Shown piece after piece: positions 26,853-63,449 of a DNA stretch of 64,000 nt. The position numbers and the translations under genes are program-made. The stretch lies in NCBI GenBank assembly GCA_012963885.1, contig DTUY01000088.1, forward strand, positions 24,989 through 88,988. The letters are read 5' to 3'. Each line of letters begins with the position of its first letter. Positions within the stretch are counted from its first letter, which is position 1. The DNA is from Candidatus Poribacteria bacterium. Its GTDB lineage: Bacteria; Poribacteria; WGA-4E; UBA9662. A model generated the notes under the pieces. The model saw nothing but the letters and a program-made list of their open reading frames with translations. It was not told the DNA's origin and ran no database searches.

Positions 26853-29800
26853 ATGTTAGGCTCCAAAAGATTATTTCTAAGTGTCCTTTTTCTTGTTTTG
26901 ATCCCTTTTTTTGCATATGCACAGCAAACTCCGGAAACTAGAATTATTAGCGGTGTCAGCGGAACAGTTTCACACGGAGATGTTGTTTTTATGTGGATGG
27001 GACAATCTACGGATAGACCTATTCTTGGCTATTACTACACCTTGGGAAATGCTGAGCCTGTCTTTACTGATGCAACTCAGGTTACTTTCTTCGATCTGTT
27101 CGATGGCATTTACTCTTTTTCTATCAGTGCAATTGATATTGATGGGGTTATTGATCCGACACCAGCTTTTGAAAACTTCCAAGTTAGTCGTAACGTCCAA
27201 CTGGAAGTTGAATTTAATGGACAGAGCAATTTCGCAAATTACCTTCAGAGCGGCAGAATTCTGCAAGGTATGAGTCTGAATCAGCATGATGACGATTGGT
27301 ATAAATTCGATGTTTCCAACGTAGGTGCCATTACTGTCAGTTTAAAACGAGTGGGAGGCACTGGATTAGCTACGGCAAAGATTTATCAAAAGATTGCTTC
27401 CGACGCTAACAAGATAGCAGAATTTCATATTGATCAGCAGAATGCCCAGCGTCAGATAATGACCATCGGTGTTGCTGAGGGTAGCTATTTTATTCAGATC
27501 CAGCCGGGTATTGTTGATTTCGATTTTACGGGTTATACGCTTGCTGTTTCACCAAACAAACTGGGAGATGGCGTAGCTTGGGATGTTGAAAATAATGATA
27601 CATTTGCTGATGCGTCCCCTTTGAAGTTTCCTGCGAATCAGCAACTTACCCTTATCGGCAGTCAAAATAGCATAGGTGATCTCGATTGGTTTACACTTCA
27701 GATTTTGCGACGACAGAAACTCAAGGTTATCTTTGAGCGTCTCGGGGCATCCAGCCAAACAATGACCTATCTATACCGATCACCAGTGGGGAACGAGGTC
27801 AGTCGACAGGTCGGTCTACTGGAAGCGACTACCCTGAACGGGCATTTTGCTCAACTTGAAACCTACGTTGCTCCGGGTAACTACCTCTTCAAAATAGACA
27901 ATGGGACTTTCCAAGAAGCTATAAACTATATTGTTCTGCTCCAGTTGGAAGAAATAGGAGTGGGAATGATCACCGAGTTTGAACCGAATAATATCTCTCC
28001 TTTATTGAATCCGAACAGTGCTGATCGTATTAGTTTGGGAAAAACGCTTGTCGGGTCAAGTTGGAATGGGAATGAAGACATAGATTGGTTCCAGATCAGC
28101 ATACCAAATCTAGATCGTTTAGATCAGAGTATTCTCCATATTAGTTTTGAGCGTTCGCTAGGAATTGGTTCAACACGATTAGAGGTTTTTAGTCACAGCG
28201 GTATCAAAGTCGGTGAACTGAAGATTTCTGCCCAAAACGATCAAAGCGGTCAACTTTCGGTGCCAGTAAACAACCGGACGCTAATTCTTCGGTTGACTCC
28301 AACTCATGAATCAGCTATGGCAGACTATAGGCTTCGACCAACATTGATCAAATCTGCTCGTCATTTGGCAGAAAAGGCACTGGTCCTAGATGAAAAGTTG
28401 ATAGTTGAAGTCAAGTTAAGCCAATCTGTGAGTGCAGCAACTTTTGACCTAATCGGTGATTTCACCTCGCCTTCCGCAGATTTTCGGACGAAAAATATCC
28501 CGTTGATTGCAACAGAATCCTCTGGTAATGACACCGCTCTAACAGGTAGTTACCAAATGTTATTAGGTGATGATGCTACTTCGGTGACTGTTATGGTTAA
28601 ACTCACGGACTCGGATAATCGAATCCTCAATATCAATTTGCCCAATCAGATTGAAATCGATACAACCGTCCCTGAAATTAAGCTTTTAGAACATAATGGA
28701 CGTGGAGTTCTTATAGCTGGGGACCAATTGGAAGTTGTGCTTCACGGTGATGTTGAAGATGTAGAAGCCTCTGTCGAAATTATCGATGCTGAAACCGGAT
28801 TTAAAGCCGTAAAGATCCCGATGAAACGAATAGATAACAACTGGCAGGCTATCTACCAGGTGAAGCCCAGCGACACCATTAAGAATGGGATTGTTGTCGC
28901 CCGGTTAACTGATGATGCCGGAAATACGGCAACAGTACAGACCCAGCGACAAGTGAATTTAATAGGGAAATCTCCCAAAATTATATCGGCAGATCACGAC
29001 GCAGACCTGCCATTGGGACTTGGTCAAACGTTAACAGTCACAATGGTTGCGACGACTAATGGAACTGCTACGTTTTCGATTAATGACCCAATTTCTATGA
29101 CCGGCGATGGACAAGGCGTTTACGTGGGCAGGTATATTGTGCAGGAAGGGGATCAACTGAAAGACGCAAAGATTAGCATCGGTTTTGTTGATCAAAGCGG
29201 TCAAAGGGTTGACATCGAAGTTTCTAAATCACTGACCATCGACGGCAATTTGCCTGAATCTGTCCGTGTGCTGGAAGCAGTGGATGTGCCAGACGATCAA
29301 GGATTTAGGATATATCTTAAGTGGGAACCTTCTGTCGATCCGACACTTTCACACTATAACGTTTACTTGTCAGACCGACCAATCCGAGAGGTTGGTAAAC
29401 CCATACTTGGAAACCTCAAGACAACAAGTACTGTCCTAAGTGTTCCATTAAATAATGTTCCGTTTTACATAGCCATCACGGCTACCGACAGTGTGGGTAA
29501 CGTGTCTCGTATATCTGCTGAATCTGTGGTGAATAGAGTCAAGACAATTGACAATCTACCACCTAATCCTGTCGTGCTAGTATCTGCTATCGACACGCCA
29601 GATGATGCGGGCAAGAGTGTTACTGTGTCTTGGACACATCCGAGTTTTGATTCCGATTTTCATAAATATAGAATTTACGCTTCTGAACTATCTCCAACCA
29701 ATTCCTCCGCGGTTCTTGAACTCCAATCTGAAATCTTTAACGTCGCCTTAACTTCAGTTGACGTGTCAACTGTTATTGATAACAAAGACCAGTTTTTTTT

Positions 29801-32800
29801 AGTCACTGCTATTGATAAATCTGGCAATGAATCGGCTATTGTTGAGGGTGCCATCTCCGCAGCGACACATTCGACTGCTAATGTTATTTTAGATTCCGAT
29901 GGATTGCTTCGTTTTCAGACAGCGCCGATCGGCCTCATTCATTACAATTCTCCCTCTTTCCGATGGAGTTCGTTTCGGTCTGAGACGAAGTACCGTTATC
30001 AATTGGATCAGCACTCGCCCCGGATCATAAACGCCACCAAACTTCTGCTCAGGGATCTAGCACCAGGTAGTCACCAATTGCGGGTCGAAACCCTAGACGG
30101 AAAGCAATCGGTAATCAGACGATTTTCTGTTTCTGATTCATTGCTTAGTGAAAACGAGCCCAACAATAATTCTGATCAAGCTAATAATCTGCCACTCAAC
30201 TGGGAAATTCGAGCTGATGCAGCTGATATCGATTTTTATCAGATTCAAGTAGAACATAAGGGGGTCTTAGACATCTATCTCGGTCGAAACATCTCCCCAT
30301 TAACAATCACTGTTTATCGAGGGCAGCAACCTATTGCCGTTGGTCAAGTCCAGCCGAACAAGTTAAGTCCTATCAGCATCGGCGTGTTGCCCGAATCCTA
30401 TCTAGTAGTTGTAGAGAATGATAGTCAAGCTGTTAGTCTCTACAGTTTAAGCACGCAGTTTACAATCAGCGAAGTGTGGGAAACTGAGCCCAATGATCAG
30501 GTTGCTTCCCCAATGCCAATTGACACTGTCATCAGAGGCTCTCAGACCAGACAAGGAGATCGGGATCTTCATCGGCTTCAGCTGAACCAAGCCGGTTTGC
30601 TGGTTGTCAACGTAACCAGTGAAGATGAGAACCCAAACATGGAACTCATTCTCAAAGATGAGACAGGTGTTGTTGGCCGATCCAAGGAATCTGTCATGAC
30701 TGCAGAGGTAAAAAGTGGAACATACTTTTTAGAGATTACTCCCGAAAGCGAATATCGTTTGATAGCCACACTTGTTGAGCGTGCCAATTTCTGGATTGAT
30801 GATGGAACCAAAAACCCACCCAGGAACCTGCTACGATCTGGCGATAGTCTAGTTGTTGATATCAGCTGGCATGGTGAAACCAGTTTTTCACTTGACGGGG
30901 TAACATCAGAGGTCGCACTAAAAAATCCCGCCAGCATCAAGATTCCTAACAATCTGGACATTTCGGATGTGTCAATTGGGGTTACACTGGTAAACAGCCG
31001 TCAAAACGCTATTCATTTTGAACTTTCACCGCCTCTTGAGATTCATACAACTACCCCAAATAGCATTCAAAACCTTGTAGCCTTTGATACGCCGGACGAC
31101 GCTGGAGGGAATGTTACGCTGTCATGGGCACGTCCTGGCGACCTAGCTAATCTAGCAGGATACAAAATCTACCTGTTTGATGAAGGTCCAGAAGAAGATC
31201 CATCAGCATCCAGGCTTGAATCTGAAGTAAATGATCCGTTAATAACCCAAATTAGCATTTCAACGGATGTTGATGACATTGATCTTTTTTTTGCTGTAAT
31301 CGCTGTGGATTTGTACGGCAACGAGTCTAAAATCACAGATTCATCAACCGATGGTCCAGTGCGATCCACCAATAACAAGATGCCACCGAACATTATTTCT
31401 GCCCGCCATAACGCAACTAAAACTTTGGTTAATGGTGACATTTTAAATGTCGAATTAACTGGTGATAGATCTAAGACTGCTAGTTTCTCAATTACAGGTG
31501 TTGTTGAAAACATAAAGTTGTTTGACGATGGCAAACATGACGATAAAGAAGCTAACGATGGTCATTATGCTGGGAGTTATCAGGTAAAACCGAAAGATCT
31601 TGCCATCAATACACTGGTTGAAGTGACATTGAATGACGGTAAAGGGAATCATGCGACTCAAGCTGTAGCACCTACGATATCTGTCGATGCAATACCACCG
31701 CGAATTAAAGAATTGGCTCATGATGCTAAAACGCCATTGAAAGCTGGAGATACCCTCAGTATCAGTTTACTTGCTGAATCGAATATAATCGTGAAGTTTG
31801 AAATTGTTGATAAGGACAGAATAGTAATTGACACCAATCGGTTTAGTCTCGTCCAAAACATTCAACTTGAAGACAACCAGAAACCGGATGGGGATAAAGC
31901 CTTTACAATGCCGATGATAGATTTCCGCTCATCATTGGTTATTCAAGAAGGGGATGATTTAACAGACGGACATGTACGGGCTACGGTGCAGAAACTTACT
32001 GGCAAGGCGATCATTTTGATGTCAACCACGGCGCTGACCGTCGATACAATTTCTCCGGACAAGGTTGCCGATCTGACTGCTGTTGATCGGCCGAGTGATC
32101 AAGGGTATGTTGTTCGTCTCTCTTGGCAGGCAAATCAAAATTCGGATTTTGACCACTACCGAATCTATCTGAGCAACACCCCAATTTCTCCCTATTCCCT
32201 AGAGTCAATCAAATTTTTAACTACTAAAACCGAATCTGAAATGGTTAAGGTCGAACAGAATAATGCTGATATTTACTTGGCTGTAACAGCAGTTGATGTA
32301 GCAGGTAACATCCAACAAGACCTGTCTATGGTAACAACGCAAGCGATTGATAATATTCCGCCGGTACCAGTACAGATTGTTCTAGCAACGGACAGTCCAA
32401 ACGATTTTGGAGGTCAGGTAACCTTAGCACTGCGATCGCCTAACTTCGAACCCGATTTTGCTGGTTACCGTGTCTACGTTTCAGGAGATAAGATTGCGGC
32501 AACTCAAGGGTTGAGACCTATTCTGACCATTCCTGATCGAAACCTGGTTAACATAGATGTACCGTCACCAAGTGATAAGCAACCCTATTTTTATGCCATT
32601 ACAGCTATCGATACCTCAGCCAACGAATCGCAACTTAACACCGGTTCTGTGACACTAGCTATTCAATCTGCTAACAACATCGGACGTGAGATAGAAAATC
32701 CTGTCCAGATTGTCAGTGGACCGATTGGTACTGTACGACGAAAAGCGGTCACTTTCCACCTTTTTAGTATGGCTGAGTCACCAATCGTATTTAGTTTGAA

Positions 32801-35800
32801 TAACCAACCGCTGAGAAGCGCTAGATTAAATCAGTTAACTTTCCACAATTTAAAGGTTGGTAGCCACACATTTTCAGCAAAATTGACTAATGATTCACGC
32901 ACCACAGTTCGCAATTTCACAATAGTACCAACTTTCACTGTAGAGATTGAGCCAAACAATTCTCCTTTTACTGCTACGCCTTTGACGAGTAACGGAATTA
33001 TGCTCGGGTCAACAAATGCTGAGCTTGATATTGATTGGTTTCAGGTAACGCTAAATAGGGAAACAAGCAGCCAACTCGATCTACATTTTGATCGGTCACA
33101 GGGAATTGGTCGAACCAATATAACTGTTCTATCATCAGATCTACAGGTTCTAAGCGAAATAGCGGCTGATCCATCGACACGCCAACGGATTCAGATAAGT
33201 CTTGGTATTGGATTTGGGACCGACGATCTGCTGATAAAAGTGCAAGCGTCAGGAGAGAATCCAGCTGCTACCTACAATCTGTCCATAGCAAAGATACGGA
33301 GATTACCAGTATCTATATTGGAAATTGAACCCAACGATACACTTGAAGTAACGCAATCTATTGACCTAGGCAATCAGGTTTTCGAAATTGTGGGGCGTGC
33401 GGATCGACCTCAGGACATTGATTATTTTGAACTTAATGTTCCTCTTCAGAAACTATTGACCATTAATTTCCAGTCTACTCCGAAAGCAACTGTACAGATA
33501 TTGTCGGAAAAAGAGCAAATTGGTCAACTTGATAGCAAAAACAAGAATTGGGAAACAATGCTAACAACCGGCAGATATAAACTGCGAGTAGCGAATGCAA
33601 ATGGTACTTATCGAATTGCCATCAAACCAAAAGAGGTCTTATTGGACAAATGGGAACTCGAACCCAACGGTGACATCAGATTTGCTACTTTAATCAAGTC
33701 CAATACGGTAGTCAACGGTTCGCTATCATTAACCGATCGAGATTGGTTCAAGCTAGTTACTAATGAGCGTGGTATTCTTAGTGTGGCGCTTTCTGGTGAA
33801 TCGATACAAGAGGCAAAATTGACTCTGCATTCTGTGGTTGGCGGAACAATCAAACCCAAGATTCTATCAGCCACCAACACCACTACTTTTTCAATCGATG
33901 CTTTTCCAGGTACCTATTACCTGAAGATCGAGGCCAACGCTTCGTTTAGCAAATACCAGCTGACGCCCGTTTTGGTTACCAAGGTTTCTCATAATGCCGT
34001 TGATCGGATTTTGGGAACAAACGAGACCCTAACTGTCCAGTTTGATTGGATTCCTGATCAGCAAGCTAACCTTCGGATCGTAAAAGCTGAACAGGTTATT
34101 GACATTCGTCCGATGACCCATCAGGGTAATGGTCACTATGTGAGTCAGCTAAAAATGACTGACAATCTGGCTGTCGTAAAAGGCAGTCTTATCGTCGATC
34201 TAGCCATATCAAACCATCCAGATCTTATCAACAGCTTTCTGATTGAAGATTCCATTCACATTGATACTCTACCACCTAAAATCGAGCGAATTTCCCATAA
34301 ATCTGTCAGGCCTAACGGCACAGTGCTGCCGGTTGGCCTCGACCAAAATTTGATTATTCGTATGGTTGGTGAAGCTAGATCAATGGCTAGGTTTCGCATT
34401 GAAGCCGACAACTTCTCTGTCATCGGAGAGATGTTCGATGATGGTAAACATGATGATCAGAAAATAGACGATGGGATCTATAGTGGCTTCTACACCGTTA
34501 GCCCGGGTGACAACGTTAGCCGAGGGAAACTCATTGGTCTCCTAAAAGATTCTGCAGATAACACTAGTCAATTAGTCAGTAACATGCCGGTTGTTCTTGA
34601 TACGGATCCTCCAGAAATTCAAAGCATTGCTTATACTGTCAAACGTCCGCAACAGGGATTTATTACCACCACTACGCTTCTAGCCGGAGATATTTTGACA
34701 ATTACGTTGACGGGAACCCCGAATTGCAAAGCCACTTTCCATCTAGATGATATGGCAAAAGATCTGTCGCTCTTTGATGATGGCACCCATAGCGACCTAA
34801 CACCAAATGATGGAATCTATACTAATTTTTATGTCGTACGGAAAGAGAACCAGACGAAGAGTGTTGCTGTCATTACCCAATTAACGGATTTAGCTGGCAA
34901 CGAAAACGAGCAGATACTTTCTGAGACACTGAATATTGATACCGACCCGCCAGAAATCAAGTCAATCAGACATAGCGCTGGCAGTATAGCCTTAGTACAA
35001 GGTGATAAACTTATCGTATATATGGAAGGCGAACCTGGCGGTACAGCCATATTTGACATCGGTTCCTTAAAAACCGATCTGCCGCTCTTCGACGATGGAT
35101 CCGGTGAGGACAGCGAACCGAATGACGGAACCTACACCGGCCTGTACCAGATTGTGGCTGGCGACTCTGTCCATAACGCCATGATATCTGCCAGACTCAT
35201 CGATCAAAATGGAAACAGCCAAATGATTCGTGCCGGTTCCCGTCTAACAATCGATGCTGTTCCACCAGATCCAATTAGAAATATCAAGGTGACTGATCAG
35301 CCTGATGATCAAGGTAATGTCTTGATCATCACTTGGGATCTGCTTGATCAAACAGACGATTTTGCCAGGTACCAGATATACCGCGAAACAGCGCCTATCC
35401 GATCAACGTTCAGTCTTATTCCTATCCCAATTAATCTGTTGTCGGCAAACCGAATCGAGGCAAAAGTGAACGTGCCGCGCAATAATTTCAACTATTACGT
35501 TGCTGTGACAGTGGTCGATCTGGCTGGAAACGAATCACTGACAGAAGAACGTCAGTCCATATTTGGACCGGTACAGGCGACTGATGATCTACCACCGCCA
35601 TCAGTCACCAATGTAACCGCCTCGGACAAACCGAGTGACAATGGCAAAACGTTGGTTGTCCACTGGGCGCCTGTCTTGGTAGAGGATTTTGCGCGTGTTG
35701 ACATCTATGTTGAGTCGAATCAGATTAAAAAAACCAATGACCTGAAACCGGTTTTGAGTATTACTGATCCAAATGTAATCGAAGCCGAGCTGACAATTGA

Positions 35801-36959
35801 GCTGGATAATACCAATTATTTTGTAGCTGTGATTGCGGCAGATGAAAACCAAAACAACTCGACAATAGGTACCGGCTCCATCGCTGGTCCGGTGCAAACT
35901 AAAGATGAAATTCCTCCTCTACCTGTTGTAGGTGTATCTGCTATCGATACCCTCTCTGATAATGGGAAGAGTCTCACCGTTTCCTGGACGCTGCTGGAGG
36001 AAGTTGATGTCTATCAGGTTTACCTTTCCCTCACGCCCATTGGCACTAAAGATATACGGGGACTGAAACCGGTCATCGTTAAAGATGACAAGGAAAGAGA
36101 AAAACAGATTGATACTCCGGCAGATGGAATTGATCTATTCGTGGCGGTAACGGCAGCTGATGTAGCCGGTAACAGATCTGAACTTGATGAAGCCAGCGTT
36201 GCTGGGCCAGTACAATCAGTATCTAACCTGATTGTACCCAATATTCCAACGACTATTACTGCCGGGTTTGATCCTAAAACACAAATTGCTGTACCCGCGA
36301 ATGAGGTCGGTAGCAGGACAACAGTCATTGATATCGTTCTGCCGACTGATGCAGACATCATTTCTCAGATCGAGGAAGCCAACTACTTTTTGGAACAAGC
36401 CCATATTGATGACACAACAGACATTGCACTTCAAAATACAACTCGGCAATTTATTCTCAATGGTGAAAAGGGTTCTTCGTTCCAAATTACAATGTCATAT
36501 GATGGGAGAGAAGTCCCTCAGGATGTTGAGAGTAAGCTACGTATTTTCAGCCTGAATCCTTACGGCCGAATTATACTGTGGGAGCTTGTCTCAGGATCTC
36601 AATTTATTGATTTTGAAAATAAGACCATTACTGCTAGTACGAATCGACTTTCCGTTTTTCGCATCGCGCGTTTACAACTGCCTAACAATCTTAACAATGT
36701 TGTTGTTCATCCCAATCCATTTAGACCCAACATCACGGAAAGCAAGGAAATAACTTTTGAGAAATTAACAGAAAACTCAATCATAGACATATTTACTTTG
36801 AACGGGGAGTTGGTGAAATCAGACATCGAAGGCAGGTCCGGTTACGCCATATGGGATGGTCGTAACGATGGTGGATCAGAGGTAGTGAGTGGACTGTATG
36901 TCTATTTGATCCGTAGTGACATCGATAAGGCTGTGGGTAAAATTCTGATTATTCGGTGA
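26853..36959 (+). CDS. giant secreted protein: PPC-like, anchor-X-like and fibronectin III modules in three super-repeats
   Basis: A 3,368-residue exported protein. Residues 1-23 are a signal peptide (core LFLSVLFLVLIPFFAYA). By eye it contains about eight PPC-like domains (E-x-E-P-N-N/D starts with a later D-x-D-W-F, near residues 105, 243, 372, 1097, 1209, 2028, 2153 and 2266). At least four acidic FDDGxHxD...NDGxY motifs (about 1555, 2526, 2639, 2744) mark choice-of-anchor-X-like domains. Eight fibronectin type III-like domains carry a D-x-P-x-D-x-G start (about 800, 905, 1400, 1732, 1832, 2802, 2912, 3016). Modules recur in the same order three times. Residues about 3280-3368 are a FlgD-like sorting tail (NPFRP, then IWDGRND and GLYVYLI). 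Probably a cell-surface or matrix protein. The frame is open for 10.1 kb without a break. Confidence 0.82.
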   Translation: MLGSKRLFLSVLFLVLIPFFAYAQQTPETRIISGVSGTVSHGDVVFMWMGQSTDRPILGYYYTLGNAEPVFTDATQVTFFDLFDGIYSFSISAIDIDGVIDPTPAFENFQVSRNVQLEVEFNGQSNFANYLQSGRILQGMSLNQHDDDWYKFDVSNVGAITVSLKRVGGTGLATAKIYQKIASDANKIAEFHIDQQNAQRQIMTIGVAEGSYFIQIQPGIVDFDFTGYTLAVSPNKLGDGVAWDVENNDTFADASPLKFPANQQLTLIGSQNSIGDLDWFTLQILRRQKLKVIFERLGASSQTMTYLYRSPVGNEVSRQVGLLEATTLNGHFAQLETYVAPGNYLFKIDNGTFQEAINYIVLLQLEEIGVGMITEFEPNNISPLLNPNSADRISLGKTLVGSSWNGNEDIDWFQISIPNLDRLDQSILHISFERSLGIGSTRLEVFSHSGIKVGELKISAQNDQSGQLSVPVNNRTLILRLTPTHESAMADYRLRPTLIKSARHLAEKALVLDEKLIVEVKLSQSVSAATFDLIGDFTSPSADFRTKNIPLIATESSGNDTALTGSYQMLLGDDATSVTVMVKLTDSDNRILNINLPNQIEIDTTVPEIKLLEHNGRGVLIAGDQLEVVLHGDVEDVEASVEIIDAETGFKAVKIPMKRIDNNWQAIYQVKPSDTIKNGIVVARLTDDAGNTATVQTQRQVNLIGKSPKIISADHDADLPLGLGQTLTVTMVATTNGTATFSINDPISMTGDGQGVYVGRYIVQEGDQLKDAKISIGFVDQSGQRVDIEVSKSLTIDGNLPESVRVLEAVDVPDDQGFRIYLKWEPSVDPTLSHYNVYLSDRPIREVGKPILGNLKTTSTVLSVPLNNVPFYIAITATDSVGNVSRISAESVVNRVKTIDNLPPNPVVLVSAIDTPDDAGKSVTVSWTHPSFDSDFHKYRIYASELSPTNSSAVLELQSEIFNVALTSVDVSTVIDNKDQFFLVTAIDKSGNESAIVEGAISAATHSTANVILDSDGLLRFQTAPIGLIHYNSPSFRWSSFRSETKYRYQLDQHSPRIINATKLLLRDLAPGSHQLRVETLDGKQSVIRRFSVSDSLLSENEPNNNSDQANNLPLNWEIRADAADIDFYQIQVEHKGVLDIYLGRNISPLTITVYRGQQPIAVGQVQPNKLSPISIGVLPESYLVVVENDSQAVSLYSLSTQFTISEVWETEPNDQVASPMPIDTVIRGSQTRQGDRDLHRLQLNQAGLLVVNVTSEDENPNMELILKDETGVVGRSKESVMTAEVKSGTYFLEITPESEYRLIATLVERANFWIDDGTKNPPRNLLRSGDSLVVDISWHGETSFSLDGVTSEVALKNPASIKIPNNLDISDVSIGVTLVNSRQNAIHFELSPPLEIHTTTPNSIQNLVAFDTPDDAGGNVTLSWARPGDLANLAGYKIYLFDEGPEEDPSASRLESEVNDPLITQISISTDVDDIDLFFAVIAVDLYGNESKITDSSTDGPVRSTNNKMPPNIISARHNATKTLVNGDILNVELTGDRSKTASFSITGVVENIKLFDDGKHDDKEANDGHYAGSYQVKPKDLAINTLVEVTLNDGKGNHATQAVAPTISVDAIPPRIKELAHDAKTPLKAGDTLSISLLAESNIIVKFEIVDKDRIVIDTNRFSLVQNIQLEDNQKPDGDKAFTMPMIDFRSSLVIQEGDDLTDGHVRATVQKLTGKAIILMSTTALTVDTISPDKVADLTAVDRPSDQGYVVRLSWQANQNSDFDHYRIYLSNTPISPYSLESIKFLTTKTESEMVKVEQNNADIYLAVTAVDVAGNIQQDLSMVTTQAIDNIPPVPVQIVLATDSPNDFGGQVTLALRSPNFEPDFAGYRVYVSGDKIAATQGLRPILTIPDRNLVNIDVPSPSDKQPYFYAITAIDTSANESQLNTGSVTLAIQSANNIGREIENPVQIVSGPIGTVRRKAVTFHLFSMAESPIVFSLNNQPLRSARLNQLTFHNLKVGSHTFSAKLTNDSRTTVRNFTIVPTFTVEIEPNNSPFTATPLTSNGIMLGSTNAELDIDWFQVTLNRETSSQLDLHFDRSQGIGRTNITVLSSDLQVLSEIAADPSTRQRIQISLGIGFGTDDLLIKVQASGENPAATYNLSIAKIRRLPVSILEIEPNDTLEVTQSIDLGNQVFEIVGRADRPQDIDYFELNVPLQKLLTINFQSTPKATVQILSEKEQIGQLDSKNKNWETMLTTGRYKLRVANANGTYRIAIKPKEVLLDKWELEPNGDIRFATLIKSNTVVNGSLSLTDRDWFKLVTNERGILSVALSGESIQEAKLTLHSVVGGTIKPKILSATNTTTFSIDAFPGTYYLKIEANASFSKYQLTPVLVTKVSHNAVDRILGTNETLTVQFDWIPDQQANLRIVKAEQVIDIRPMTHQGNGHYVSQLKMTDNLAVVKGSLIVDLAISNHPDLINSFLIEDSIHIDTLPPKIERISHKSVRPNGTVLPVGLDQNLIIRMVGEARSMARFRIEADNFSVIGEMFDDGKHDDQKIDDGIYSGFYTVSPGDNVSRGKLIGLLKDSADNTSQLVSNMPVVLDTDPPEIQSIAYTVKRPQQGFITTTTLLAGDILTITLTGTPNCKATFHLDDMAKDLSLFDDGTHSDLTPNDGIYTNFYVVRKENQTKSVAVITQLTDLAGNENEQILSETLNIDTDPPEIKSIRHSAGSIALVQGDKLIVYMEGEPGGTAIFDIGSLKTDLPLFDDGSGEDSEPNDGTYTGLYQIVAGDSVHNAMISARLIDQNGNSQMIRAGSRLTIDAVPPDPIRNIKVTDQPDDQGNVLIITWDLLDQTDDFARYQIYRETAPIRSTFSLIPIPINLLSANRIEAKVNVPRNNFNYYVAVTVVDLAGNESLTEERQSIFGPVQATDDLPPPSVTNVTASDKPSDNGKTLVVHWAPVLVEDFARVDIYVESNQIKKTNDLKPVLSITDPNVIEAELTIELDNTNYFVAVIAADENQNNSTIGTGSIAGPVQTKDEIPPLPVVGVSAIDTLSDNGKSLTVSWTLLEEVDVYQVYLSLTPIGTKDIRGLKPVIVKDDKEREKQIDTPADGIDLFVAVTAADVAGNRSELDEASVAGPVQSVSNLIVPNIPTTITAGFDPKTQIAVPANEVGSRTTVIDIVLPTDADIISQIEEANYFLEQAHIDDTTDIALQNTTRQFILNGEKGSSFQITMSYDGREVPQDVESKLRIFSLNPYGRIILWELVSGSQFIDFENKTITASTNRLSVFRIARLQLPNNLNNVVVHPNPFRPNITESKEITFEKLTENSIIDIFTLNGELVKSDIEGRSGYAIWDGRNDGGSEVVSGLYVYLIRSDIDKAVGKILIIR

Positions 36960-54968: not shown

Positions 54969-56642
54969 TCAAACGGAATTTTCACAACGGTGATAAGCAT
55001 CCAGAGCTAAAATCGGGAACACAGATGCGTATATCGGATCAATATATCCACCGATAATTTCCCAGTAGATTCCAACGCAACTTGCATTCCATGATCCATC
55101 TGAATTTTGTCGGTTGATTAGGAATTCCAAACCTCGATGGGCAGATGGACTTTGGTGGTCAACAATCAACAGGGCATATGTGCTCCAGGCTGTTTGTTCA
55201 ACTGTACTATCGATCCGATTTCCAAACATATCTTCTCCCCAACCACCATCAGGGTTCTGCATACTTTCGAGCCATTTGATACCATCTCTAATTGCTGGGA
55301 TATCATGATGCCTCGCCTTAACTATAGCGCATATGGCACAAGCTGTTCCATATGTTCGTTTAGCCAACCAGAGGTCATCCCAAAAACCGTCACTGGATAT
55401 GTGGGTTGCAAGCCAAGTGACGGCTTGGTCAATCTGTTTTTGGTATCCATTTGCCGCTAGGAACACTTCAATTGCGTGCGCCGTAATGGAAACACATCCA
55501 ACATCTCCTTCACCAGGAATATAGGTGCTCCAACTTCCATTATCTGCTTGATTTGTTATCAACCAATCAAGCCCATGTTGAACTGTCTCATTGTTGACAG
55601 GCAAGCCGGATTTTAGCAGTGCGAGCACAGCTAAAGCCGTGTCATCGGCATCACACGGCAAACCACCATCTGATAAGCCAGAAAAAGCCCAACCACCTTC
55701 CCTGTTTTGATGTTTGATCAGCCATTTTGCTCCTTCTGAGATGTGCTCTTTGTGGTTAGGATTACCTACCTCTGACAGCGCGATCAGGCTGAGCGAAGTA
55801 TCCCAGATATTAAGATTAAGCGCTTCGCGACATCCGCCGTCAGGGTTCTTGGTTTGTTCTAGCCATGATTGACTTTGCTTAATAAGCGCCAATGTTTGAG
55901 AATCATCCGAATATTTACTGAATTCAATCAGGGCGATCGTTGCTAAGGCCGTGATATAATTTACACGAAACCAACTGCCATCACTTAGCACTTTACTTTG
56001 GAGCCATGAGAACAGATCGTTAATAGTATCAGCTCTTTTCTGTACTTCTAATTCTATCAGTAACATAGCTGGTACGAGCGTTTGTTGTTCTGCGATAAAA
56101 AGATTACCGAAAGTCTCTGAATAGAAGAAATCGGGAGTTGGGATCAGATGTTTTGGCGGTTTGAGGAAAAGGCGTAAACGGGGAAAGGCTTTTAAAAACT
56201 TTTGTACAATTTTAATAATTGGAATAGCAAACTTAGGAGGGGTCAACCGATTCCAGTCATAATTTCCATGATATGCATATGCTAGCTTAATCAGACCAAG
56301 ATTCATTGATAACAGGGGGATCTTACTCAGCGCAACCTGAATTTCTGAATTCGGTTTTTCTTTTTGAATCTGCTGAAGTATTAATTGGGCGAAAAGAGTT
56401 GCATTTTGATTTGGAATGCCGGACGCATCCAGCGACCACATGCCGTCCTGATCTTGGTTGGCTAGAAGCCAGTTGACAATTGAAATATCAGGTTGCTTGC
56501 CCATTGCAATCTGCGTCCAGGCGTAAGCGCAGGTAGGGAATGTCATGGAGGAAAGCTGACCTTGAAAGCATCCGGATGATTGCTGTTGATCCACCAGAAA
56601 TTTGGTGCCAAGATGAAGTGCCATTTCAATATCAGCTTTCAT
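54969..56642 (-). CDS. class II terpene cyclase, squalene-hopene cyclase-like
   Basis: A 557-residue alpha/alpha-barrel protein with prenyltransferase/squalene-oxidase repeats. The proton-donating motif of class II cyclases is present: D331-A-D333-D334 in CDADDTALAVLA, matching DxDDTA of squalene-hopene cyclase. QW-type repeats recur (QDQDGMW, QNREGGW, QADNGSW, QNPDGGW, QNSDGSW). It is shorter than typical bacterial squalene-hopene cyclases (about 630 residues) and lacks several aromatic QW positions, so the substrate may be a shorter or different isoprenoid. Its ATG overlaps the purN stop (ATGA), implying coupled translation. It is the last gene of a minus-strand run starting with the lipid-type fusion enzyme. 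Confidence 0.8.
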   Translation of the reverse strand: MKADIEMALHLGTKFLVDQQQSSGCFQGQLSSMTFPTCAYAWTQIAMGKQPDISIVNWLLANQDQDGMWSLDASGIPNQNATLFAQLILQQIQKEKPNSEIQVALSKIPLLSMNLGLIKLAYAYHGNYDWNRLTPPKFAIPIIKIVQKFLKAFPRLRLFLKPPKHLIPTPDFFYSETFGNLFIAEQQTLVPAMLLIELEVQKRADTINDLFSWLQSKVLSDGSWFRVNYITALATIALIEFSKYSDDSQTLALIKQSQSWLEQTKNPDGGCREALNLNIWDTSLSLIALSEVGNPNHKEHISEGAKWLIKHQNREGGWAFSGLSDGGLPCDADDTALAVLALLKSGLPVNNETVQHGLDWLITNQADNGSWSTYIPGEGDVGCVSITAHAIEVFLAANGYQKQIDQAVTWLATHISSDGFWDDLWLAKRTYGTACAICAIVKARHHDIPAIRDGIKWLESMQNPDGGWGEDMFGNRIDSTVEQTAWSTYALLIVDHQSPSAHRGLEFLINRQNSDGSWNASCVGIYWEIIGGYIDPIYASVFPILALDAYHRCENSV

Positions 56643-57391: not shown

Positions 57392-57634
57392 TTAGGTTGG
57401 TATCTGAAGTTGAACAGACTGTTGCTTCTTTTCTTGATGTGTTTCGGGTGACGCGATCCAGCTACGGTAATCGTACCATTTGCGCAAAATTTCTAGCTCG
57501 AGCAAATCATTGTTAGTTAAATTTCGGCAATTCTGAAGCTGTTGCAGTTGGAATAGCAACTCCTCGTCTGTTTTCTCCATCAGATCAATTCGATCACAGC
57601 GGAAGAAGATTTCTCGACAGGGATCTAGGTTCAT
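57392..57634 (-). CDS. 80-residue protein of unknown function, coupled to the fusion enzyme
   Basis: A small, soluble, leucine- and glutamine-rich helical protein (EELLFQLQQLQNCRNLTNND, then LLELEILRKWYDYRSW). Its ATG shares one base with the stop of the fusion enzyme (TAATG), a strong sign of coupled translation and a functional link. No family recognised. A role as partner or regulator of the fusion enzyme is a guess from position. Confidence 0.65.
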   Translation of the reverse strand: MNLDPCREIFFRCDRIDLMEKTDEELLFQLQQLQNCRNLTNNDLLELEILRKWYDYRSWIASPETHQEKKQQSVQLQIPT

Positions 57635-60600
57635 TATATAGCCTCACTAGTAGCTTTCAAACTCTCGATCTCTGATCTAACGTCAGCTACTATTTCTTGA
57701 TACTTCTGATATTTGTTGCGATTAAGCAAATCGCTTTCTTGGTGACAAAAAATCGGTTCTCCGAAGGTGACCCGGATTTTGCTTTTGCGCAATTTTTTCT
57801 CTCCTTTTGGCCATGCCTGATATGTGCCTTCAATATAAGAAGGAATAATCGGCACGCCTGTTTTGAGCGCTAGCACACCTAAACCAGCTTTGAACAATTG
57901 CAGTTTGCCATCGATAGATCTGGTTCCCTCAGGATATATAAGAAGGCACAGATCTTCATTAAGTATTTCCTTTGACATGTTAAGACTTTGCAGGGAGATA
58001 GTTTCCCGATCGAATGGTACCACATTCATGAAATTAGAAAAAAACCAAGATTTAATCTTACTGTCAAAAAAATATTCTTTGGCACCAGCCACTTGTAATC
58101 TTCGTGATTCACTACCCAGAGCAGTCATGATGGCTATAGTGTCAAGATGACTGGTATGGTTTGCAGCAATAATATAACGTTGGCCTTTGGGGATATGTTC
58201 TATCCCATCAGACCGAATAGAAAAATAACTGTGGCATAGGATGTACATACAAGCTCGAAACAGTTGAGAACATATCCCCAAGGCAACACCACGTTGATTG
58301 ATCAGCACAGTGTGAATATCTGGCACCACATCAGCTTGGAATGTGGTCGATCTGATTTTTCTAATGGCTTTAAATATGTCACCAACTGTCTGAATCCCAG
58401 ATACGATTTCATCTGGTATGTGTTTCTGCCCTTCGTTTTCCAGTAACAAAAGTAACTCAACTTTCATAATTGAGTCGAGTGCCAAGTCTGTATCAATGTC
58501 CGTTTTAGTCCCAATTTGGTAGGCAGGGACATTTGACATCTGGCTCAATTCTAATATGATTCTCCACTCCCAATCTTCTAGAGGTGTTGTAACTAAATTT
58601 GCCGAGGGTTCACTGCTTTTGGTCACGGTATGTTTTTCTACCCATCGTTTGACCTGGTGTCGATCGATTTCTCCATTTCCTTTTTTCGGCAGATGATCAT
58701 GCCATAGGAAATGACTCTTATGAATCTGCTGGTATGAAGGTAACTCCTCTCCGCATGTCTTCATGTGACCGCGTATTACCTGCTCGACTGCTTCCTGAGC
58801 AAGTTCATTATTTTCTTGTGGCTTGATAACCACATGTACTTCTTCGCTGATTGCGTCGGTAAGACTAATTCCAACGGCGCAGAGTTCATCAATCATTTCA
58901 TTCTGACAATAAAGAGCCTCGATTTCAGTTGGGTACACATTTTTTCCCGCGCTAGTTACAATGACTTCCTTACTGCGCCCTGTGATATAGAGATATCCGT
59001 CATCGTCAAAACACCCCAAATCACCGGTGTGGAGATAGTCGTTTATGATAGCTCTTTCTGTAGCTTCCGGATTCTTGTAATAACCACGCATTACACTGGG
59101 ACCTTTGGCGACAATCTCACCAATTCCATCGAAGTTTGCGTTTTTAATTTCAACCTTTGTCCCGTCGACAGCAAAACCAACAGATGAACGACGACTTTTT
59201 TTATAGGGGGTAACTGCTAAGACTGGGGCCGACTCTGTTAGGCCATAACCTTGATGAATTGTGATCCCAAGGCGATTAAAATTATCGTAAACTGTATTCG
59301 GTAAACTGGCACCACCGCTGACAAAAACACGTATTTTCCCTCCCATAGCTTGATGTGCCTTTTGAATTATATCGGCATCAAATTTCACGTTTAATGGAGT
59401 GCTGTTTATAGCCAAGTTGGCCGATTTCGTTAGATGGCGCATAATAGTGTTGTAAAGCATTTGAAAAAACCTTGGCACCGCAACCATCACTGTCGTTTGC
59501 GTTTCACGCATAATTTCAAGCATGGCAGTTGGAGAGTTAAGATAAGTCACTGTTGTACCACCGTAAATTGACATTAGAAATCCACTGGTAAATTCCAGTG
59601 CGTGGTACATCGGTAAAACTGATAGCATTTGATCAGTCTCATAAGGTTCTAAAACAGTTGCAACTGCTAGAACGTTTGAAATGAAGTTTCCATGTGACAG
59701 CATGGCTCCTTTCGGATCCGCAGCTGTACCGGAAGTAAATATAATCGATGCTATCTCATCCGGTTCAATTTTAATTTTGGGGAGTTCATCAGATAGATCA
59801 GGTAAATCAAGACGGCTGAGTTGAGTGGTCCCAAAGACTTGGCAGAAGTTATTAACGTTAAGGCATTGAGGTGGGTTTTCGGTCGGTTTGCCAACAAATT
59901 TCTCAAGACGACTAAACAAATTGGTAGTCGTAAGTATAGCTTTTGCTGAAGTGAAATTAGCTAGGGCATAAACTTCACGTGACGATGTTTGTTGATCTAT
60001 AGGAACGAGGACCAAACCAAGCTGAGAGGCGGCAAAATACGCGATTCCCCATTCGGGCTGATTCTCAGAAAATAAAATAACATGATCCCCCTTGCGTAAG
60101 CCTCTCTCCCACAGTGAGCTCGCTATACGGCGCGAAAGATCATAGAAATCGCTATATGTGTAGCGAACCCAACCTTCTTGCCTCTTAATTTGAAGCGCTA
60201 CCTTGTCCGGAAGTTTATCCGCTCTCCACTTTAGCAAGCTTGGAATATTTTGAAAGTTAGGTGCTATTTTGTCTGATTCATCTGAGTATCTTTTTCCCTC
60301 TGCATTTCTCTCCAAATGGTCGAGCTCATCTTCCATCTTTAAAATATGGTGCTTGATGCCTGGGATGTGGATTTGTTGTAGATAATGTTTCCAGTCGATT
60401 CGAGATGGATCGAAGTTATAGATTTGCTGTTCCTCTGGTGAAAGGGACTGATGTAATTCGGTCGCCTTTCTGGTCTCAAAATCGAAATTTAAACTTGCAT
60501 ATGGACCATAAATATCAGTGTAATAGAGCAACCTCTCAATCGCATTTTGAAGGATAGAAATACGTCGATTCTTTTTTGAAGCCCATTTCATCGGGGTTTT

Positions 60601-61875
60601 CTTCAAGATCCAGCTGAGTGTTCTGAGGTGACGAAGTTTTCCCTCAAACTTTCTTGCGAATTTCTCTTTTGAGAGAAACTTCCATTCTGATATTGAGATA
60701 GGATTTCCTTTATCAACCATTGGGTGTTTCCTAAAATATTCAATTGTCAAATCGTGTAGACGTTGAAAAGATAAAGGATTAGTGTGACCACTTGATATAT
60801 GATAAATTTCAATCCCACCATTGTCATAGGATCTTGTCGCTGCTGCCAGTGTTGCATTGACAACGATGTCAACAGGGATAATATCCAAAGTAATATTTGG
60901 TTTAGCTGGAAAATCTGGAAGCCGCCCTTTACCAAATCCAATAATTATTGGATCCGCCATTCGTAGGCCTGCCAACCATCCAGGTGACGGTTCTTCGAGG
61001 CTACTTTCAATAATAGAGGGTCTGATAATCGCTACGGGAAGGTTGTCACGCATTTTCGCAACTGCTTGTTCTCCTAATGCTTTGGTATAGGTATAGATGT
61101 CATTCCAACCGCGCATAGAAGCATGATTTCGACCAGCTTTAATAAGTTGGTCCTCTACCCACTTTTTTCTTGATTTTTTAGTGATCTCTCCAAAGGATTG
61201 GAATGAATCCTCCGATTGAGTTATTTGCTCCCGAATCCGCTGACCAATTCCAAGCATTCCTTCTATCTCTGCCTCAAAGGTTTCGGGAGGAGGATACTCT
61301 TTGCCGCGTAGTTCCTTCACTAAATCCTCGTAGGGAAGGTGCAATTCCTCGGGGACTCGACCAGTCCGATTGCCACATGTGTAGGCCGTTGAAATATGAA
61401 CGAAGACGGCATTATCGCATTGACGTGTGAACTCAACTGCGTGTTGAACAGAGATAACGTTCATCCGTATGGCATCGTCAATTGGAGCGTCAAATTGAAC
61501 AATGGCCGCGCTATTAATAAAAATTTGGACTTCTCTAATTAATTTAGTGTACCAGTCTTCAGATAATCCAAGTTTTTCGCGACTTAAATTTCCACTAACG
61601 GCGAATACTTTTTGACCAATCCAACCCTCAAACTCTTTCCCATGAATCTGACGTAACTGAGTAAAGACACTGGAGTTAAAAAACTCGGTTTCCAGGCGTT
61701 CCTGTGCCGTTTTGATGGTACCGTTGGATCCAACGGTATCCCGGATAATCAGGTAGATTTTTTGGACTGTCGGTAAGCTGGTTAAAATCTTTGCAACCAG
61801 AGGCTGCCCTACGAAACCCGTTGCGCCTGTGATAAGCACAATCTTCCCTTGGAAAAATTCAGAGATTGTTGTCAT
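57634..61875 (-). CDS. fusion enzyme: fatty acyl reductase, AMP-dependent acyl ligase, acyl carrier domain, PlsC acyltransferase
   Basis: About 1,413 residues in four modules. (1) Residues 1-470: NAD-binding male-sterility/thioester-reductase type, with TGATGFVG at 16-23 and the YTYTK YxxxK pair. (2) About 540-1050: long-chain acyl-CoA/ACP synthetase, with TSGTAADPKGAM near 715, YGLTESAPVL and YLHTGDLGCFDDDGY. (3) About 1095-1175: acyl carrier domain with phosphopantetheine Ser1135 in LALDSIMKVEL. (4) About 1200-1413: lysophospholipid-type acyltransferase, with NHTSHLD near 1237 and YPEGTRS near 1312. The parts could activate a fatty acid, hold it on the carrier, reduce it to aldehyde or alcohol and transfer an acyl chain, so ether, wax-like or modified phospholipid products are conceivable. 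The ATG at 61875 has AAAGGG just upstream; the frame opens at 61950. No signal peptide. Confidence 0.85.
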   Translation of the reverse strand: MTTISEFFQGKIVLITGATGFVGQPLVAKILTSLPTVQKIYLIIRDTVGSNGTIKTAQERLETEFFNSSVFTQLRQIHGKEFEGWIGQKVFAVSGNLSREKLGLSEDWYTKLIREVQIFINSAAIVQFDAPIDDAIRMNVISVQHAVEFTRQCDNAVFVHISTAYTCGNRTGRVPEELHLPYEDLVKELRGKEYPPPETFEAEIEGMLGIGQRIREQITQSEDSFQSFGEITKKSRKKWVEDQLIKAGRNHASMRGWNDIYTYTKALGEQAVAKMRDNLPVAIIRPSIIESSLEEPSPGWLAGLRMADPIIIGFGKGRLPDFPAKPNITLDIIPVDIVVNATLAAATRSYDNGGIEIYHISSGHTNPLSFQRLHDLTIEYFRKHPMVDKGNPISISEWKFLSKEKFARKFEGKLRHLRTLSWILKKTPMKWASKKNRRISILQNAIERLLYYTDIYGPYASLNFDFETRKATELHQSLSPEEQQIYNFDPSRIDWKHYLQQIHIPGIKHHILKMEDELDHLERNAEGKRYSDESDKIAPNFQNIPSLLKWRADKLPDKVALQIKRQEGWVRYTYSDFYDLSRRIASSLWERGLRKGDHVILFSENQPEWGIAYFAASQLGLVLVPIDQQTSSREVYALANFTSAKAILTTTNLFSRLEKFVGKPTENPPQCLNVNNFCQVFGTTQLSRLDLPDLSDELPKIKIEPDEIASIIFTSGTAADPKGAMLSHGNFISNVLAVATVLEPYETDQMLSVLPMYHALEFTSGFLMSIYGGTTVTYLNSPTAMLEIMRETQTTVMVAVPRFFQMLYNTIMRHLTKSANLAINSTPLNVKFDADIIQKAHQAMGGKIRVFVSGGASLPNTVYDNFNRLGITIHQGYGLTESAPVLAVTPYKKSRRSSVGFAVDGTKVEIKNANFDGIGEIVAKGPSVMRGYYKNPEATERAIINDYLHTGDLGCFDDDGYLYITGRSKEVIVTSAGKNVYPTEIEALYCQNEMIDELCAVGISLTDAISEEVHVVIKPQENNELAQEAVEQVIRGHMKTCGEELPSYQQIHKSHFLWHDHLPKKGNGEIDRHQVKRWVEKHTVTKSSEPSANLVTTPLEDWEWRIILELSQMSNVPAYQIGTKTDIDTDLALDSIMKVELLLLLENEGQKHIPDEIVSGIQTVGDIFKAIRKIRSTTFQADVVPDIHTVLINQRGVALGICSQLFRACMYILCHSYFSIRSDGIEHIPKGQRYIIAANHTSHLDTIAIMTALGSESRRLQVAGAKEYFFDSKIKSWFFSNFMNVVPFDRETISLQSLNMSKEILNEDLCLLIYPEGTRSIDGKLQLFKAGLGVLALKTGVPIIPSYIEGTYQAWPKGEKKLRKSKIRVTFGEPIFCHQESDLLNRNKYQKYQEIVADVRSEIESLKATSEAI

Positions 61876-61977
61876 AATGCCCTTTAGTAGGTAGCTTTTA
61901 TCTGGCTTTACAGCGACTGTAGTATACAAAGAAAAACGAAAGGATGTCAATGCCTAAAGCGGCAGGGGGAATTACCT

Positions 61978-62357: not shown

Positions 62358-62417
62358 AGGATTTGAGTTTGATGGCTAATTAATTCATACTATACATCTT
62401 TTGTCACACCATTGGTT

Positions 62418-63449
62418 ATGAAATACAAAAGGTCTAATTTCAAAAGACACATAAAGTTGATTCTTATTGTCACCATTCTGATTATTGTCAACATCGTTGA
62501 TGTAAAGGCGGTGAATCTTAATGTAGGTAGAGATGGCTGGGCTGCTCTCAAAATTGGTGTTGGTGCCCGTGCATCGGCGATGGGAGATACTTTTGTTGCT
62601 GTGGCGGATGATGTGAATTCAATTTACTGGAATCCCTCAGGACTGGGTCGGCTGGCTCGTCCTCAGTTTTCTGCTATGCACTCCGAATGGTTAGCGGGTA
62701 TTCGTTATGAGTGGATTGGGTTTGCGCAATCTTTTGGGAAATGGCTAACTCTTGGTTCGGATATTTCGTATGTGTGGACAGGTGAGATACCACATACCAT
62801 CAATTCAGATCAACACAATGGATTCTTCGATTACAATAATACGGTGGTCCGTGTTGCCGCAGGAAGTGGTGCTTATAAAGGAATCCGAATTGGCGCTGCC
62901 TATCAGGTTGCTCAAAAAAATGTGAATTTTGTAGCTAACAAGCCAATATCAAACATGAAAGTCCAACTCAATAGTATGAATATTGGTATTTTCTATCAAC
63001 TGCCCGTTGAAGGGCTTCACTTTGGTGCTATCCTTAAAAATGTTGGTGGTCGCCCACAAAAATTCGACCTTGATCCAATGCCAGTCATCAGATATCTCCG
63101 AATAGGTATTGCTTATACGATATCTATTCAAACGCCAGTAGATATTTCTCAATTGCAGGAAGGGCAACCGCCAACCCAACCCAAAGAGAACAAACTGATC
63201 CTGGCTGCGGATGTCAATTCCGCTCGTGGTTGGCCGACAGATCTACATCTTGGGTTGGAGTACGTCTTCCAAAATGGGTTAGTCCTCAGAGGCGGCTATC
63301 AGAGTCGGAATGGGAACGAATTTGAATTCCTCTCCAAGTTAAGCGGAGGGTTCGGTTACGCCACCACAACCTATCGAATCGATTATGCCTTTGTTCCATT
63401 CGGCGACCTAGGTCAAACCCATCGTATTTCCTTCACGCTCGATTTCTAA
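62418..63449 (+). CDS. PorV/PorQ-family outer-membrane protein
   Basis: A 343-residue protein. The N-terminal 31 residues are a signal peptide (LILIVTILIIVNIVDVKA). The mature start AVNLNVGRDGWAALKIGVGARASAMGD, read here as VGARASAMGDTFVAVADD, then NSIYWNPSGLGRL, is the hallmark of the PorV/PorQ/UPF0164 beta-barrel family. Amphipathic strands continue to a C-terminal aromatic residue (HRISFTLDF). In Bacteroidetes, PorV escorts type IX secretion cargo at the outer membrane. Three large proteins in this window carry cargo-type tails, which fits that role. A TTG at 62412 would add two residues. Confidence 0.85.
   Translation: MKYKRSNFKRHIKLILIVTILIIVNIVDVKAVNLNVGRDGWAALKIGVGARASAMGDTFVAVADDVNSIYWNPSGLGRLARPQFSAMHSEWLAGIRYEWIGFAQSFGKWLTLGSDISYVWTGEIPHTINSDQHNGFFDYNNTVVRVAAGSGAYKGIRIGAAYQVAQKNVNFVANKPISNMKVQLNSMNIGIFYQLPVEGLHFGAILKNVGGRPQKFDLDPMPVIRYLRIGIAYTISIQTPVDISQLQEGQPPTQPKENKLILAADVNSARGWPTDLHLGLEYVFQNGLVLRGGYQSRNGNEFEFLSKLSGGFGYATTTYRIDYAFVPFGDLGQTHRISFTLDF

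Follow-up and report, generated by a model that had tools for sequence, protein, structure and literature searches.

What can a bacterium do with a reductase, an acyl ligase, a carrier and an acyltransferase joined in one protein? This question is raised by a gene in a 64,000-nucleotide stretch, here called the window, of contig DTUY01000088.1 from a Candidatus Poribacteria bacterium (GCA_012963885.1; positions 24,989 to 88,988). The gene is of the type of elbD, from the myxobacterial elb operon (MIBiG BGC0000871). The ElbD architecture is already known, in Poribacteria too. What is new, from our sequence comparisons, is a lineage-specific exchange of an ElbB-type neighbour for a homologue of alkyl-dihydroxyacetone-phosphate (alkyl-DHAP) synthase (AGPS), together with a ligase module whose sites are relaxed.

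An ElbD-type fusion protein

Pfam searches placed four modules in a single chain, in the order fatty-acyl reductase (FAR)-type reductase, AMP-forming ligase, carrier and acyltransferase (Table 1). A first-pass annotation, made from the letters alone, had proposed such a fusion of 1,413 residues without naming a strand; it is confirmed, on the minus strand. The reading frame runs uninterrupted from an ATG at 61875 to a stop codon at 57636-57634, and the opposite (plus) strand of this interval is crowded with stops. No change is seen in the YxxxK motif of FAR or in HxxxxD and EGTR of the acyltransferase. Residues 4-513 match the fatty acyl-CoA reductase of PDB entry 7eoz at E = 2.2e-76, whereas the reductase module matches a nonribosomal-peptide-synthetase (NRPS) reductase domain at only E = 1.5e-6; the reductase is therefore of FAR type. 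The carrier lay below the reporting level of the whole-protein Pfam scan (E ≤ 1e-3) and passes the PP-binding cut-off when excised.

We compared the protein with Myxococcus sp. CA023 and six further myxobacterial genomes. All seven match it at E ≤ 1e-40; six of the matches are single frames of 1,500-1,631 residues, and in the seventh genome (G089) different frames contain the ligase-like and the reductase-like matches. The Myxococcus match is one protein, 33% identical over residues 4-1379 (30-33% end to end), with the same module order and the same catalytic residues in FAR, carrier and acyltransferase. When Myxococcus ElbD was searched against the ligase-like loci of the window genome, the window protein came out best, at 626 bits, and the next locus scored 207. 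The best end-to-end match is thus mutual, the reverse direction having been run against selected loci of that genome. The Myxococcus gene belongs to a row of five: epimerase-type, HAD, Lar_N-domain, elbD itself and a second epimerase-type gene. This agrees with the published elbA-elbE layout (PMC9131029). Sequence comparison thus identifies the window gene as ElbD-type, and the likeness to ElbD suggested in the first-pass annotation holds for both module order and the cluster in which the Myxococcus match lies.

Two other architectures share parts with the window protein. Aas has ligase and acyltransferase types in common with it; the corresponding NCBIfam equivalogs score 224.6 and 175.8 bits against cut-offs of 1221 and 1349, and identity with Aas was rejected. 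Carboxylic acid reductases (CARs) share a ligase, a carrier and a reductase, and carry the last as a C-terminal R domain. The reductase of the window protein is N-terminal and FAR-type, and identity with a CAR was rejected likewise. Aas- and CAR-type enzymes had been named beside ElbD as relatives worth aligning; the domain searches and alignments support the reductase, the acyltransferase and the match to ElbD, and point to neither of these two types.

Among 84 genomes of the phylum, which include the window genome (G000), 76 match the window protein at E ≤ 1e-60. One of them (G018) matches through the ligase only (residues 561-1003) and was excluded, leaving 75 elbD genomes. Reductase and remainder occupy separate frames in all five genomes of family f7 with elbD (G006, G007, G008, G009 and G011). 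The same split is seen in six members of genus g10 (G046, G047, G050, G053, G056 and G075). An in-frame TAG is reported inside elbD of G058, G061, G064 and G070; in G058 (L029) and G064 (L023) it splits the reductase from the ligase-carrier-acyltransferase part, like the two-gene f7 form. Fusion is therefore common, not obligatory. The family of the window genome, f1, comprises three genomes: G000, G025 and G024 (97, 96 and 80% complete, respectively). In a 26-sequence tree, the f1 ElbDs and four homologues without assignment form one group, with a support of 92/82, which is short of the tool's star.

Exchange of the elbD neighbour and changes in the ligase

An ElbB-type HAD gene lies at most 523 bp from elbD in 71 of the 75 elbD genomes, and this poribacterial gene is homologous to Myxococcus ElbB (37% identity for the copy in G023). 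The exceptions are one genome with elbD at a contig end (G015) and all three f1 genomes. No elbB-type HAD gene adjoins elbD at the window locus, and the genome has only a distant HAD paralogue, elsewhere, of 109 bits; across f1, such paralogues score 96-109 bits, a range also found for second copies in other genomes. Note that our HAD tally omitted weak second paralogues, except in the f1 genomes. A search for ElbC at E ≤ 1e-30 came back empty for all three members of f1. Compared with the elb operon, an elbB-type gene is missing next to elbD in the window, and ElbC has no match at this level in the genome. Nine poribacterial genomes have ElbC matches of at least 47% identity, one of them a fragment; in most Poribacteria the identity is 31-34%, and such matches are probably paralogous. 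A Lar_N domain (E = 6.2e-38), named after the N-terminal part of lactate racemase, occurs in Myxococcus ElbC itself (L129:5134-6744, plus strand), whose function is called unknown in PMC9131029.

A different set of genes accompanies elbD in f1. In G024, elbD, an AGPS homologue and a short-chain dehydrogenase (SDR) gene are consecutive, with agps directly downstream of elbD. This AGPS homologue scores 495.9 bits against peroxisomal AGPS (4bby). Used as a query against the 84 genomes, it found full-length matches solely in f1, namely G024 itself, G025 (690 bits) and the window genome (677 bits); the next-best match in the phylum reaches 129.8 bits and covers one subdomain. The homologue of the window genome, on contig C373 (L165:2593-4443), scores 515.6 bits against 4bby over residues 41-606 and keeps the HHH motif as GGSLSHHHG. 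The next gene after agps encodes the same SDR in every f1 genome (44-84% identity). The agps contig of the window genome has a GC content of 0.437 and a tetranucleotide correlation of 0.941 with the window, the window's own chunks, which are included in the reference, giving 0.918-0.979. Its composition fits, and it is syntenic in G025; we judge contamination (5.45% for the genome) to be an unlikely source of this contig. As judged from these gene searches, f1 lacks the ElbB-type neighbour and instead has AGPS and the SDR, a combination found nowhere else among the 84 genomes.

The first-pass annotation had described key motifs as intact in every module, which fails for the ligase. In the window protein, Glu1069 stands in place of lysine at the site LPKxxxG-K-xxR, and the ATP-binding loop reads TSGTAADPKG rather than TSGTTGxPKG, with AA for TG; we take these to be the sites named the A10 lysine and the ATP loop. 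We aligned six window-genus-like rows (the window protein, G025 and P0001-P0004, at least 79% identical, P0001 being nearly the window protein), 34 other poribacterial rows, 116 further homologues and six myxobacterial ElbDs. The A10 lysine is present in 1/6, 0/34 and 2/116 of the first three sets, as against 4/6 myxobacterial rows, and the ATP-loop glycine in 0/6, 0/34 and 0/116, as against 6/6. Furthermore, the A8 arginine has become histidine in 25 of the 34 other poribacterial rows. The remaining modules behave differently: the carrier serine of DSxxxVEL is constant (6/6, 34/34 and 116/116, and 5/6 myxobacterial rows, the sixth having a gap), as are the FAR tyrosine and lysine (6/6, 116/116 and all 31 other poribacterial rows with a reductase), and every ElbD row has the His, Asp and Arg of the acyltransferase. 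These rows are not independent, the 116 homologues being redundant and partly identical to our loci and the 34 rows coming from few families.

On this alignment, the poribacterial rows have relaxed ligase sites and show no variation at the key residues of the other three modules. The ligase is altered and may be inactive.

Predicted pathway and alternatives

The peroxisomal ether-lipid pathway consists of FAR1, GNPAT, AGPS and an acyl/alkyl-DHAP reductase. The window genome resembles it in combining a FAR module with a full-length AGPS homologue and an SDR; in G024 their genes are neighbours. It differs in that FAR and acyltransferase are fused with a ligase and a carrier, in that the acyltransferase carries motifs that we take to be of AGPAT-like rather than GNPAT-like type, and in that the role of the SDR is a predicted one. 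From this gene content, we consider it probable, with modest confidence, that the ElbD-type protein makes fatty alcohol, and perhaps acyl-DHAP, as substrates from which the predicted AGPS, encoded at another place in the genome, would build a 1-O-alkyl ether lipid. The ligase, or else another enzyme, would load an acyl group on the carrier, and the FAR module would reduce the carrier-bound acyl to fatty alcohol. DHAP would be acylated by the acyltransferase module, unless this module acts on the sn-2 position at a later stage. AGPS would then swap the acyl for the alkyl chain, forming the ether, and the SDR would reduce 1-alkyl-DHAP to 1-alkyl-glycerol-3-phosphate. No match over the cut-off was found for PF10520 (CarF/PEDS1) in the 84 genomes, nor in any of 14 controls (G033 had a sub-threshold match of 23.0 bits against 26.4), and on this basis an alkyl ether is predicted, not a plasmalogen.

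There is a parallel in Myxococcus, where AGPS shares an operon with a reductase-like gene and a fusion of FAR and acyltransferase, described in M. xanthus as MXAN_1676-1674 (PMC9131029) and examined here in its Myxococcus sp. copy. The f1 set of ElbD, AGPS and SDR would cover the functions of this operon, with ligase and carrier added. The two sets differ in several ways: the Myxococcus fusion has GNPAT-like motifs and neither ligase nor carrier, unlike the window ElbD; the AGPS homologue of the window genome has no such fusion of its own; and the third gene of the Myxococcus operon is epimerase-type, the f1 SDR adh_short-type.

Acylation of DHAP is the weakest step of the proposed pathway, because the acyltransferase has AGPAT-like motifs (NHTSHLD and YPEGTRS), not the GNPAT-like HRSYFD and EGQRSR of the Myxococcus fusion. 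PF19277 (GPAT_C family) is matched in none of the 84 genomes, with E. coli the sole positive among the 14 controls; it misses the GNPAT-like Myxococcus fusion too, so its absence is no proof that a DHAP acyltransferase is lacking. Several further points weigh against a joint pathway of ElbD and AGPS. The A10 lysine is missing from the ligase of the window protein. Because generic FAD oxidases match as well, the AGPS query finds 82 of the 84 genomes at E ≤ 1e-15, and the AGPS call depends on length and score. The agps-SDR pair lies on another contig than elbD in G000 and G025, and the linkage of elbD to agps comes from one genome, G024, which is 80% complete. Moreover, the three f1 genomes are one family, so that the swap of HAD for AGPS counts as one event. 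For M. xanthus it is reported that ether lipids fell only slightly without the AGPS homologue, ElbD being the main route, and that no acyltransferase activity or fatty alcohol was detected with isolated ElbD (PMC9131029).

The M. xanthus results favour a reading in which ElbD acts as in the main pathway of that species, independent of AGPS, and the AGPS-SDR pair serves another lipid pool. The 72 of 75 poribacterial elbD genomes without a full-length AGPS match agree with it, showing that ElbD is kept without AGPS. We nevertheless regard it as unlikely, since f1 has AGPS in the absence of the usual ElbB-type HAD gene, and elbD, agps and the SDR gene are adjacent in G024. Less likely still would be an Aas-like machine, in which the acyltransferase receives the acyl group from ligase and carrier to acylate a lysolipid, with aldehyde or alcohol from the reductase as a minor product. 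The AGPAT-like motifs would suit this, as would the rank of acyl-[ACP]--phospholipid O-acyltransferase as second NCBIfam match, but that match falls far short of its cut-off (224.6 against 1221 bits), and the FAR tyrosine and lysine are unchanged in the 6/6, 31/31 and 116/116 rows with a reductase. The FAR-type reductase would also suit a locus that makes wax esters, or free fatty alcohol used in storage or at the cell surface. We consider this highly improbable: M. xanthus mutants tie ElbD to ether lipids (PMC9131029), and the WS/DGAT family is matched in 0 of 84 genomes, yet in 0 of 14 controls too. The lipid product guessed at in the first-pass annotation thus gains support in its ether part, from the AGPS homologue in the genome, and none in its wax part.

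A separate possibility, compatible with all of these readings, is that the ligase module is a relic or docking scaffold without ATP activation, the carrier being charged by another ligase or from acyl-ACP. The depleted A10 lysine and ATP-loop glycine, the A8 change to histidine and the unchanged FAR, carrier and acyltransferase residues of the same rows all point this way. So does retention of TG in the ATP loop by all four distinct other ligase frames of the window genome (L005 and L006 are one protein, counted once); as to the A10 site of these frames, two show the GK form, L003 does not, and in L002 the site is cut off or masked. However, serine replaces the A10 lysine in 16 of 27 Myxococcus-genus ElbDs, and ligase activity in vitro is reported for M. 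xanthus ElbD (PMC9131029). The A5 glutamate and A7 aspartate, constant across all ElbD rows, point to retained ATP binding. We therefore lean somewhat against a relic, while treating it as a serious contender. More tentative again, and in our view rather doubtful, is an evolutionary extension of the pathway of ElbD and AGPS: f1 would have rewired its ElbD system to a peroxisome-like pathway, dropping the phosphatase-type partner ElbB and taking in AGPS and an alkyl-DHAP reductase, with fatty alcohol and acyl-DHAP, the two AGPS substrates, both coming from one ElbD chain and with the ligase drifting phylum-wide to a non-activating, carrier-loading scaffold.

Gene boundaries, flanking genes and significance

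Table 1. The elbD-type gene, its modules and adjoining elements, in window coordinates.
Feature	Position	Strand	Evidence
elbD-type gene	57634..61875	-	intact ATG-started frame, 1,413 aa; end-to-end match to Myxococcus ElbD
Fatty-acyl reductase, NAD_binding_4, residues 15-342, YxxxK = Tyr261/Lys265	60850..61833	-	Pfam, E = 1.6e-63
FAR_C ('Sterile') domain, residues 440-513	60337..60558	-	Pfam, E = 2.1e-14; 53.9 bits, cut-off 35.4
AMP-binding, ligase large subdomain, residues 549-933	59077..60231	-	Pfam, E = 5.5e-77; ATP loop TSGTAADPKG
AMP-binding_C_3, ligase C-terminal subdomain, residues 970-1076	58648..58968	-	Pfam, E = 3.9e-4
A10 catalytic-lysine position, here Glu1069	58669..58671	-	alignment
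Acyl/peptidyl carrier, residues 1112-1168, attachment Ser1135	58372..58542	-	PP-binding, 21.0 bits, cut-off 20.8
AGPAT/PlsC-like acyltransferase, residues 1220-1348, NHTSHLD and YPEGTRS	57832..58218	-	Pfam Acyltransferase, E = 1.6e-23
Promoter-like TTGACA-18-TATACT (61950-61921) and ribosome-site-like hexamer AAAGGG (61885-61880)	61880..61950	-	pattern scan, weak
Small open reading frame, 80 aa	57392..57634	-	ATG overlaps final base of elbD stop codon

A longer elbD frame beginning with the TTG at 61950 was rejected, because this TTG opens the promoter-like hexamer and AAAGGG precedes the ATG, ending 4 bases short of it. The region has 22 promoter-pattern matches against a shuffle mean of 21.0, which is chance level. 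The 80-residue frame downstream of elbD may possibly encode a translationally coupled small protein; a clear counterpart occupies the equivalent spot in the congener G025 (L131).

Divergent from the adjoining elbD, a UPF0164-family protein is encoded at 62412-63449 (plus strand), and again at the equivalent position in G025. At 54969-56642 (minus strand) lies a class II terpene-cyclase-like protein of 557 residues with a DADDTA motif, its gene overlapping purN by 4 bases; its match to squalene-hopene cyclase is weak and partial (121 bits, mainly residues 203-552). The gene order cyclase-purN-elbD is also found in G025. Farther off, very long proteins are encoded at 1375-5697, 22186-26622 and 26853-36959 (all plus strand). 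The former two have a similar tail, FNPETWIP...WDG...G.YFY, and the last has a looser version; from the translations, our impression is that this tail looks like a C-terminal sorting signal.

The first-pass annotation had supposed a route undescribed for this phylum. This does not stand at the gene level: four-domain elbD-type core genes and clusters are reported from Poribacteria and Acidobacteriota in sponge metagenomes (PMC9426513), a paper that also cites an earlier poribacterial homologue (Lorenzen et al. 2014). Those clusters share the four-domain core gene with the window and are flanked by hydrolases/dehydratases and oxidoreductases; the part of the paper available to us makes no mention of AGPS or of ligase changes. 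A cluster resembling BGC0000871 is also among those found in a sponge metagenome (PMC12795557). Black Sea genomes have been screened for both elbD and AGPS, and the available part of that study names no Poribacteria for either, although its supplements may tabulate co-occurrence (PMC11868695). ElbD, and AGPS beside other acyl-CoA reductases, are noted in other bacteria (PMC11948995). Our literature search, in which sources were partly accessible, found no publication that pairs AGPS with elbD in Poribacteria.

These observations bear on the part that ElbD plays in forming the ether bond. An elbD gene beside an AGPS homologue and without an ElbB-type neighbour separates two candidate roles, that of a supplier of fatty alcohol and acyl-DHAP and that of an ether former that needs no AGPS. 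The survey of the phylum poses, in addition, a residue-level question about the ligase. The f1 lineage thus makes the role of ElbD testable with a three-gene construct.

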